64,000 bases of DNA. Origin: Myxococcota bacterium. Its GTDB lineage: Bacteria > Myxococcota > UBA727 > JABDBI01. The DNA lies in assembly GCA_040387835.1 (NCBI GenBank), contig JAZKCZ010000002.1, positions 1 to 64,000 of the forward strand, given 5' to 3'. Within the stretch, counting starts at the first letter, position 1. Each line of letters begins with the position of its first letter. Shown here piece after piece: positions 31,112 through 53,777 of the stretch. The notes beneath the pieces are model-generated. The model was not told the origin of the DNA and made no database searches. It worked only from the letters and a program-made list of their open reading frames with translations. A program made the position numbers and the translations under genes.

Positions 31112-31654
31112 ATGATCTTGAGTGACTCTGCCATTAAAGCTTGTATTACCTCTGGCGATATCAAAATTGAGCCTTTTCGTGCGGGAGCCTTGGGTTCCAA
31201 CAGTTATGATGTTCACTTGGGCAAGACTTTGGCGCTTTATGAGTTTCATGTGCTGGATTCTAAATCTCACAACCCGGTGCACTATTTTGACATCCCTGAA
31301 GAAGGCTTTGTTTTGGAGCCGCAGCGCTTTTACTTAGGGGTTACGGAAGAATATACCGAGACTCACAAGCATGTGCCGTTTTTGGAAGGCAAATCCAGTG
31401 TCGGGCGCCTTGGGATTGATATCCATGCAACAGCTGGCAAAGGCGATGTCGGTTTTTGCAACTACTGGACCTTAGAAATCTCCGTGAAGCAGCCGGTGCG
31501 CGTCTATGCCGGCATGCCGATTGGGCAGCTGATTTATTTTATGGTTGAGGGGACGATCGACACGCCTTATGACAAAAAGGGCTCTGCTAAATACAACCAA
31601 AAGACGGCTAAGCCAGTCGAATCCATGATGTGGAAGAACTTTAAGCATGTTTAA
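31112..31654 (+). CDS. dcd: dCTP deaminase
   Basis: A 180-residue trimeric nucleotide deaminase/dUTPase-fold enzyme that makes dUTP from dCTP for dTTP synthesis. The family core is clear: NSYDVHLG, EGKSSVGRLGIDIHATAGKGD, the catalytic glutamate in WTLEISVKQP, MPIGQLIYF and KGSAKYNQKTAKP. A bifunctional dCTP deaminase/dUTPase cannot be excluded from sequence alone. A possible promoter (TTAGCA-18-TATAGG-7-ATG) again leaves almost no leader. It overlaps the biotin carboxylase gene by 8 bases. Confidence 0.9.
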   Translation: MILSDSAIKACITSGDIKIEPFRAGALGSNSYDVHLGKTLALYEFHVLDSKSHNPVHYFDIPEEGFVLEPQRFYLGVTEEYTETHKHVPFLEGKSSVGRLGIDIHATAGKGDVGFCNYWTLEISVKQPVRVYAGMPIGQLIYFMVEGTIDTPYDKKGSAKYNQKTAKPVESMMWKNFKHV

Positions 31655-32957
31655 GCGCGTTCTCGTTGCGAATCGAGGAGAGATTGCGGCGCGTATTATC
31701 AAAAGCTGCGAGGATCTCGGCGTTCAAACGGTTGCGATTTACAGCGATGCTGACGCTGATTTGGCCTACCTGAAGCAGGCAACGGTTGCGGTGAATATTG
31801 GCCCGGCTCCGGCCAGTCAAAGCTACTTAAACCAAAATGCCATTTTAAAAGCCGCCAGGGAAAACGACTGCGAAGCGTTACATCCAGGTTATGGCTTTTT
31901 ATCCGAGAATGCTCTTTTTGCGACGCGATGTGAGCAACAAAAGCTGACTTTTATTGGACCTAAACCAAGGCACCTTCGCCAAATGGGCGATAAAGCCACT
32001 GCGATTGCGACCATGCGAGAAGCTGGCTTGCCCGTGCTTGCAGGCTCTTCTAAAATATTGAGTTCTGTCGAAGAAGCGCTCAACGTAGCCGAAGTCCTAA
32101 AGTACCCGGTCCTGCTCAAGGCCACAGCCGGCGGCGGTGGCAAAGGTATGCGTTTAGTCAATACGCCGGCTGACATGGCGCCAGCTTATCTGGAAGCTAG
32201 CGCGGAAGCTGGAAAAGCATTTGCGAATCCTGAGCTCTATCTCGAGAAATTTATCGTTGGCGCCAGGCATATCGAATTTCAAATCCTGGCAGATGCTTAT
32301 GGCAAAGTGATTCACTTGGGCGAGCGCGATTGCTCCATCCAACAACGACACCAAAAGCTTCTGGAAGAAGCCCCTGCTCCCGGTTTCTCTGCGCATCTAA
32401 GACATGAAATCGGCGAGCTGATTATTCAAACGATTTCAAAAATCGGCTATTTAGGCGCTGGCACACTTGAGTTTCTGATGGACGCACAAAATAATCTCTA
32501 TTTTATGGAGATGAACACGCGCATTCAGGTTGAGCACCCCATTACCGAAGCGGTAACCGGTCTCGATTTAATCGCCTGGCAAATTAAAATCGCAGCGGGG
32601 CAGCCTTTGACAGCTGTCTATACCAAACCAGAAGGTCACGCGATTGAATGCCGCATTAATGCCACCGCCCCCGGGACGGTGAGTAAGCTGCAAATTCCTA
32701 CCGGCGTCAGGTTTGACACCTACTTAACCGAAGGCACTGTCGTGACGCCTTATTACGACAGTATGCTGGCCAAACTCATTGTTCATGCACCCACTCGCGC
32801 GGAAGCGGTGGCGCGGCTTAAGCTGGCGCTTTTAGAGCTGGTAATCGACGGGGTGCCTACCACACAAGGTCTGCACCAGGCGATTGTACAAGACGCGCGA
32901 TTTATTGAAGGCAAATATTCTTGCCGCTTTTTTGAGGAATTTGCATGGCCAAAGTGA
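31647..32957 (+). CDS. acyl-CoA carboxylase biotin carboxylase subunit
   Basis: A 436-residue ATP-grasp enzyme that carboxylates biotin on a carrier domain. Seen are [80 protein letters not shown]. The C-terminal BC domain is complete, and no biotinyl domain is fused here. Its partner directly downstream, overlapping by 13 bases, supplies both carboxyltransferase and biotin carrier, so the pair is a two-gene carboxylase, probably for propionyl-, methylcrotonyl- or another acyl-CoA rather than the standard AccABCD enzyme. Confidence 0.9.
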
Positions 32958-34975
32958 TTTTGAATCCCATCGGCTCGAAACTGAATTTGCCGCCAAAAGA
33001 ATCGCCGCTTGAAGATATCCTTGAGGCTAAGCGGCAGGAGATTAAGCTAGGTTGGGGTGAGAAGTATCGAGAGCGGGTGCATGCCAAGGGGAAGATGACG
33101 GCTTGGGAGCGGGTGGAGGCGTTGGCTGACTGTCATCCCGGGCATCGACCCGAGATCCAGCACCCAGCACAACCCTGGACCCCGGCTCAAGGCCGGGGTG
33201 ACAGCGGGGGCCCCAGCACCCAGCACCACATCCTTCCCATTGGAACTTTTGTTCAGACAGGCAGCGCAGATAAAATTGCGCCGGCGGCGGGTGTGATTAC
33301 GGCGTTTGTTCGGATTGAAAATCGTTGGTGTATGGTCATTGCAAATGACAACACAGTCGCTTCGGGATCTTGGTGGCCTAAGACGCCGGAAAAGATAATC
33401 CGGGCGCAAGAGATGGCTCTAAAGCTTACAATCCCGGTGGTTTATTTGGTGGATTGCTCCGGGCTTTATTTGCCAGAGCAGGCAAAAAGTTTCCCCGGTC
33501 AAAAAGGTGCTGGTCATATTTTCAAAATGAACAGCTTGTTAAGTAACGCCGGAGTGCCTCAAATCGCTGGCGTATTTGGGGACTGCATTGCGGGTGGTGG
33601 TTACATGCCCATCATTTCTGACAAAGTTTATATGACCGAGCAAGCATATATGGTCATTGCCGGCGCGGCTTTGATTCAAGGCGCCAAAAGTCAAAATTTA
33701 AGTTCCAAAGACATCGGTGGACCCAGTGTGCATGTGCATCTTTCCAATTGTGCCGATTTCAGAGTGCCTGATGATCAAACTTGTCTAGCCCGCATTCGAG
33801 AAGAAATTGGGCGCTGCAATTCCAGCAGTGCGGATTATTATCGAAATGACGCTGAAGCGGCCCTGCCAAACTTTGAGACCACTGAACTTAAAGACATGAT
33901 TTCAGCGAACGAGGCATATGACATTAGACAAGTTTTAGCGCGTTTGGTTGATGACAGCTTGTTTATGGAAGTCTTTGAGCACATGGGCCATGAAGTTATC
34001 ACCGGCATTGCCAAAATATCTGGCTTGTACGTGGGCATCGCTGCCAATGTGCAAGGGCTGCTGCCTCACCCAGACGCACCTCAGCAAAAGCGGCCGGGTG
34101 GCATTTTATATAAAGAAGGCGTCGCAAAACTTGCCACCTTCGCCAGAGCCTGTGATAGCGACGGCATTCCGCTGGTTTGGCTGCAAGATGTTTCAGGATT
34201 CGACGTAGGCGCTGAAGCAGAAAAGCAAGGTCTATTGGGTTATGGCTCAAGTTTAATTTATGCGAACTCGGTCAACCAAACACCTTTCATGACCGTATTA
34301 CTGCGCAAGGCCTCAGGCGCAGGCTATTATGCGATGGCTGGGCTACCTTACGATCCGGTAATTCAGCTATCGACTTGTTTTTCACGCCTTGCGGTTATGG
34401 AAGGCAAAACACTGGCGCTGGGGGCGTTTAACACCAGGCCCGGTGAAACCGATGCCATGAAGAGTTTGTCTGAGCGTATCGAAGCCGACATGGATCCCTA
34501 CAAAGCCGCAGGGCAAATGGATACGGACGAGATTATTAAGCTCTCTGAAATTAGGTCCTATCTCGAATGCCTTGTCGAATGCTGCTACCAAAACCAAGGC
34601 AGTCGTAGAATTAAAAACCCGAGGATTTGGAGCCTTCATGATTTGGCATTGCTAGGCTATCCAAGTGCCTCCGCCATCGAGTCTAACATCACGGCTAACA
34701 CGCCAATAGCGAACAGCAGTCCGGTTTCTGGCGAGACATTTAAAGCCCCTCTGGAAGGCCTGTTCTATCTCAGATCTTCACCTACTGAACCAGCATTCAT
34801 CGTTGAGGGCCAAAAATTAAATCCTGGCGATACCGTTGGGCTCATAGAAGTGATGAAATGTTTTCATCCTTTGAAATTCGAAGGCCAAGTGCCCATGATT
34901 ATAGATAAAATTTGTGTCATGGATGCAACCCCCATCAAAGCAGGCGAGAATATTTTGCTGTTTAAATCAGTTTAA
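32945..34975 (+). CDS. carboxyltransferase fused to biotin carrier domain, with in-frame palindromic insert
   Basis: A 676-residue fusion. Residues about 20-560 are a PccB/MccB-type carboxyltransferase ([75 protein letters not shown]). Residues about 600-676 are a biotinyl domain whose attachment lysine is Lys638 in [10 protein letters not shown], with Cys in place of the usual second Met. CT-BCCP fusion in one chain is uncommon; BCCP is normally fused to the biotin carboxylase. Residues about 62-95 (between EALAD and ILPIGTF) come from a repeat element at 33131-33230 and have the look of translated palindrome, low in hydrophobics. Substrate acyl-CoA not determined. Confidence 0.87.
33131..33203. 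repeat. palindromic repeat element inserted in frame in the carboxyltransferase gene
   Basis: Imperfect terminal inverted repeats TGTCATCCCGGGC (33131-33143) and GCCGGGGTGACA (33192-33203), with an inner GATCCAG/CTGGAC pairing. The type resembles the GTCATCCC...GGGGTGAC elements known from many proteobacteria and, in Rickettsia, inside coding genes. A 14-bp direct repeat, CCAGCACCCAGCAC, occurs inside it (33157-33170) and just after it (33213-33226). The whole inserted stretch keeps the reading frame and adds about 33 codons. Confidence 0.75.
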
Positions 34976-45680: not shown

Positions 45681-45771
45681 TCGTCATTGCGAGGAGGCGC
45701 AGCCGACGCGGCAATCCAGCCTTTCGAGCGGGGCGTGGATTGCCACGTCGCTTTGCTCCTCGCAATGACGA
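45681..45771. repeat. palindromic intergenic repeat, GTCATTGCGAG family, copy 1
   Basis: Perfect 16-bp terminal inverted repeats TCGTCATTGCGAGGAG (45681-45696) and CTCCTCGCAATGACGA (45756-45771), with inner GCAATCCA/TGGATTGC pairing. It fills the gap between convergent clpS and pmbA and would form a cruciform or a bidirectional mRNA hairpin. A second copy is at 53698-53777. Confidence 0.88.
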
Positions 45772-53697: not shown

Positions 53698-53777
53698 TCG
53701 TCATTGCGAGCGCAGCGAAGCAATCCATTCCGTGCGTTGGGTGGATTGCCGCGTCGCTACGCTCCTCGCAATGACGA
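53698..53777. repeat. palindromic intergenic repeat, GTCATTGCGAG family, copy 2
   Basis: Perfect 13-bp terminal inverted repeats TCGTCATTGCGAG (53698-53710) and CTCGCAATGACGA (53765-53777), with inner GCAATCCA (53720-53727) and TGGATTGC (53742-53749). Same family as 45681-45771. Positioned immediately after the helicase stop codon, it could stabilise the 3' end of that mRNA or end transcription. Confidence 0.88.

Follow-up and report, generated by a model that had tools for sequence, protein, structure and literature searches.

How does a palindromic repeat come to be translated inside an enzyme, and to which kind of element does it belong? The question is raised by a carboxyltransferase gene of a Myxococcota bacterium, located within the 64,000-nucleotide stretch of DNA that was analysed as a whole (hereafter the window). 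The first-pass annotation had described an in-frame palindromic insert in this gene and likened it to the elements of Rickettsia. As argued below, the insert is very probably a non-autonomous, CGTC/TGTC-tagged REP dimer that landed in a tolerant loop of the carboxyltransferase and is now translated within the enzyme, which passively tolerates it.

The carboxyltransferase gene and its insert

The product of the gene matched Carboxyl_trans (Pfam, 2.2e-92), and BCCP-type NCBIfam matches indicated the biotinyl domain at its C-terminus. The best PDB fold matches of its structural model were glutaconyl-CoA decarboxylase subunit A chains. The biotin carboxylase gene adjoins the carboxyltransferase not only here (table 1) but also in three relatives, that is, NORP243 (a metagenome-assembled genome of the sister genus, G004), G006 and G010. 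Compared with its NORP243 homologue, the gene showed a pN of 0.18 and a pS of 0.77, and thus looks maintained under constraint.

Table 1. Coordinates of the carboxyltransferase locus and of the parts of its insert (window numbering)
Feature	Position	Strand	Remark
Biotin carboxylase gene, carboxyltransferase partner	31647-32957	+	Pfam and NCBIfam matches
Acyl-CoA carboxyltransferase gene with C-terminal biotinyl (BCCP-like) domain, 676 aa	32945-34975	+	Insert = residues 63-95
Left REP unit TGTCATCCCGGGCATCGACCCGAGATCCAG: TGTC tag, imperfect palindromic stem, CCAG tail	33131-33160	+	Covariance model R1, 43.0 bits
Direct repeat, copy 1: tail (CCAG) and spacer of the dimer	33157-33173	+	Similar spacers in other dimers
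Dimer spacer, 14 nt	33161-33174	+	Same length in 8/10 inward-facing dimers of the window genome
Right REP unit, inverted, CTGGACCCCGGCTCAAGGCCGGGGTGACA	33175-33203	-	Covariance model R1, 47.8 bits
Extra 26 bp, resembling a REP 3′ arm and tail followed by a second spacer copy	33204-33229	+	Direct repeat and spacer comparison
Direct repeat, copy 2	33213-33229	+	16/17 match to copy 1

The 676-codon frame stays open straight through the palindromic dimer (TGTCATCCC...GGGGTGACA, 73 bp, 33131-33203). In the protein, the insert lies between ...ALAD and ILPIGTF. At this site 34 of the 35 aligned homologues have four residues, against 33 in the window protein; the exception is the NORP243 homologue, in which the site is slightly shorter still. 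The net gain is therefore 29 codons (87 bp). All 35 homologues show a gap opposite residues 63-91, and since the element is missing from every one of them, it is to be regarded as an insertion. Among these homologues, no distant one had the same peptide in the absence of the repeat DNA, a finding that would have spoken against this. Judging from the alignment, the insert is real and in frame, as had been proposed at first sight, and, among the genomes seen, it is confined to this lineage.

The element had been delimited at 33131-33230. The insert is indeed located there, but the palindromic dimer proper ends earlier, and the last 26 bp are additional to it. Within this extra segment, the second copy of the direct repeat is preceded by GGGGGCC, which is similar to the 3′ arm of a REP unit. 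Probably the segment was left over from a second REP, or it arose by partial duplication.

In the AlphaFold2 model of the carboxyltransferase (mean pLDDT 76.9), residues 67-92 scored below 50, and no secondary structure was predicted from the helix at 53-60 to the strand at 96-99. This suggests that the insert is probably a disordered, floppy extra loop. A search of Rfam with the region 32900-33400 gave no match with E up to 1.

A dispersed repeat family with in-frame copies

A nucleotide search of the window genome with the element returned dozens of matching places. A pattern of the half-repeat had 28 matches there, as opposed to none for the reversed control pattern, and a covariance model found 50 half-unit matches in the 1.83 Mb of this genome; the element is therefore not a product of chance. 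Merging of the pattern and model matches resulted in 35 sites, namely 10 inward-facing dimers, 2 outward-facing pairs and 23 single units. Twelve of the 35 sites are placed between convergent frames and none between divergent ones. NORP243 contains at least 150 half-unit matches according to the same model. From the other eight relatives searched with it, G006 had four matches and the remaining seven had none.

The units show conserved features along their whole length. The T or C preceding GTC in the tag was found in 46 of the 49 halves of the window genome and in all 83 halves of the NORP243 sample. This sample comprises 20 contigs and the carboxyltransferase locus (231 kb), picked for containing matches, and its inward-facing pairs outnumber the outward-facing ones by 25 to 2, besides many single units. 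Across the eight pairs of the stem, 95.8% of the cells are paired. Five of the eight pairs change on both sides, which none of 500 shuffles reached, and shifting of the partner abolishes the signal; these compensatory changes indicate that the hairpin is conserved. In the 21 aligned units, the first stem pair is A-U in 18 cases, the second is U-A in 15 and C-G in 6, and at the 3′ end CC is invariant and followed by A in at least 90%. The loop has 5 nt in units of 29 nt and 6 nt in units of 30 nt.

There are many further copies, several of them in frame. In the window genome, a unit is located in frame inside the kinase match of a protein kinase-AAA protein, another inside the Formyl_trans_C domain of methionyl-tRNA formyltransferase (Fmt), and a third separates the anticodon-binding domain of methionyl-tRNA synthetase (MetG) from its tRNA-binding domain. 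An in-frame unit was also found in an ImuB-like protein, which has no Pfam match and was named by reading of its sequence. In the case of a gyrase A-like and a glycosyltransferase-like protein, similarly named by reading, the units extend the C-termini.

The NORP243 sample holds 59 elements, of which about 14 are in frame within recognisable genes. For seven of these genes (TrpA, PdxJ, RsmH, RsmE, PurH, an epimerase and an amine oxidase), one and the same Pfam match extends to both sides of the element. The carboxyltransferase of NORP243 lacks the insert of the window gene; it carries instead one unit close to the N-terminus, and a dimer occupies the linker that leads to the biotinyl domain. 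A degenerate unit is located in this same linker in G006. As far as the sequences can tell, three different loops of one carboxyltransferase have been hit among related genera. In-frame copies are a genome-wide habit of the family.

In NORP243, similar helix-turn-helix proteins (IRQQTLADLLGCSRRSIYRALKQLKEQG...; L203, L204 and L210) contain REP units at different positions. They form a repeated gene family which is seemingly often hit by these units.

A second palindromic family (CGTCATTGCGAGGAGC...) was detected in the window genome, with 17 pattern matches compared with none for the reversed control. In the window it forms intergenic dimers at 45683-45769 and at about 53700-53776. To judge by its CGTC tag, this family may be a further REP of the CGTC type. 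At one locus (L010, 1485-1592; G000 C1:150764-150872), a dimer of the TGTC type is located symmetrically within an inverted pair of second-family units, as if the one element had been inserted into the other.

Origin of the insert and alternative explanations

In the most probable scenario, the REP dimer was moved into the carboxyltransferase gene by a transposase of the single-strand (HUH, IS200/RAYT-like) type, supplied in trans. It would have entered a tolerant loop; the reading frame and the remainder of the enzyme are preserved, and the 33-residue peptide would be a passive, disordered spacer. The consensus unit is without stop codons in four of its six frames. This property, together with selection against frame-breaking insertions, may account for the survival of the insert. 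The flanks of intergenic copies were searched for split genes: none was found among 10 pairs of same-strand frames, of which a few frames lack a Pfam match. The simplest reading is that frame-breaking insertions are removed by selection.

It is improbable that the insert has been co-opted, either as a loop for protein interaction or as an RNA hairpin which tunes the translation of the carboxyltransferase. The gain of elements at three loops of the same enzyme in related genera would fit such a role, but the insertion sites differ from genus to genus, the decorated proteins are unrelated to each other, and the inserted segment is predicted to be disordered. Similarly, the RNA of the insert region folds somewhat better than its shuffles (z = -2.05), a signal which is explained by the palindrome itself.

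The 14-bp direct repeat of the first-pass annotation exists and proved to be longer (17 bp, 16/17 identical), but the suggestion that it marks a duplication linked to insertion did not hold. A standard transposition with a target-site duplication of 14 to 17 bp would explain this repeat, and 73 plus 14 adds up to the 87 bp of net gain. However, the first copy is placed inside the element and not at its left edge, and it consists of a tail and spacer common to other dimers. In addition, none of the 36 dimers tested from the window genome and NORP243 has adjoining direct repeats of more than 2 bp. For these reasons, the direct repeat was rejected as a target-site duplication, and so was a transposon or MITE that duplicates its target. 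A standard transposition of this kind is very improbable.

HUH transposases, which act by single-strand transposition, make no target-site duplication. Movement of the REP dimer by such an enzyme is inferred because these enzymes leave no duplication and are encoded in this genome: it has three transposase genes of the IS200/IS605 type, along with a single RAYT-like gene that also codes for a DnaA-like domain. Around the Y1/RAYT-like genes that were inspected, no copy of the repeat was located at a distance of less than about 1.5 kb. The RAYT-like gene was also considered as a predictor of the repeat and was rejected, since relatives devoid of the repeat have such genes. Two IS200/IS605-type transposase genes (L138 and L139) have long inverted flanks of their own, unrelated to the TGTC REP.

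A misjoin of a repeat into the carboxyltransferase gene during assembly is equally hard to credit: the species is known from one assembly, repeats can produce misjoins and one copy (L022) adjoins a run of N, but the contig is 929 kb long, the reading frame runs unbroken through the insert, the neighbourhood is conserved, and a second, independent assembly (NORP243) has in-frame copies in many genes.

A broader proposal starts from the three loops hit in one carboxyltransferase and from the sizeable proportion of copies that are translated: REP insertion would be a main route of protein change in this family of bacteria, providing a steady source of new segments which may sometimes be favoured and not just tolerated. 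This is considered unlikely.

Relation to known palindromic repeats

The CGTC-tagged REPs have a CGTC or TGTC tag, a stem of 8-9 bp which opens with A-T pairs, a loop of 4-5 nt and a CCA tail (Di Nocera et al. 2013, PMC3733652). They form opposed dimers, are without a flanking transposase and sometimes have in-frame genic copies, whereas most copies are found near 3′ ends, between genes that are convergent or in the same direction (PMC3733652). The hosts described so far are mainly alphaproteobacterial (PMC3733652).

The repeat of the window shares with these REPs the TGTC/CGTC tag, the 8-bp stem with A-T pairs first, the CCA tail and the opposed dimers (PMC3733652). Its sites are likewise often between convergent genes, no transposase gene is flanked by the repeat, and in-frame copies occur within genes. 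It differs in the 6-nt loop of some units, and in its host, a family of reduced genomes outside the mainly alphaproteobacterial range. On these features of sequence, the repeat is classified as a CGTC-type REP, filed under the type and not under one of the four published families.

The genomes of the family to which the window genome belongs (G001-G007) range from 0.3 to 1.8 Mb, compared with 2.8 Mb or more in the other families of the order. This suggests genome reduction and perhaps a host-associated life. A literature search returned no earlier report of in-frame REPs for this myxobacteria-related host lineage.

REPINs (PMC3116915), which are associated with RAYT, likewise pair two inverted REPs across a short spacer and behave as one non-autonomous unit. 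The tag here, however, is TGTC and not GTAG, and no RAYT gene is flanked by the repeat. Membership in the REPIN/RAYT system was rejected, as the RAYT-like genes additionally fall below the family cut-off.

The likeness to Rickettsia that had been noted initially is upheld by the classification, since RPE-6 is placed in CGTC-1 and RPE-4 in CGTC-4 of the same superfamily (PMC3733652). By description, RPE-4 and RPE-6 are also palindromes which, in a small genome, are translated in frame within many genes that are unrelated to each other, and the difference lies in the distant host. With at least 150 half-repeat matches and about 14 decorated genes in a sample of 0.23 Mb, NORP243 is suited to the study of tolerance, frame choice and the putative transposase, and together with the window genome it provides pairs of filled and empty sites in the same gene. 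In conclusion, the element is of a known kind and its host lineage is new: the in-frame decoration of proteins by REPs, best known from Rickettsia, reaches a distant lineage of reduced genomes.
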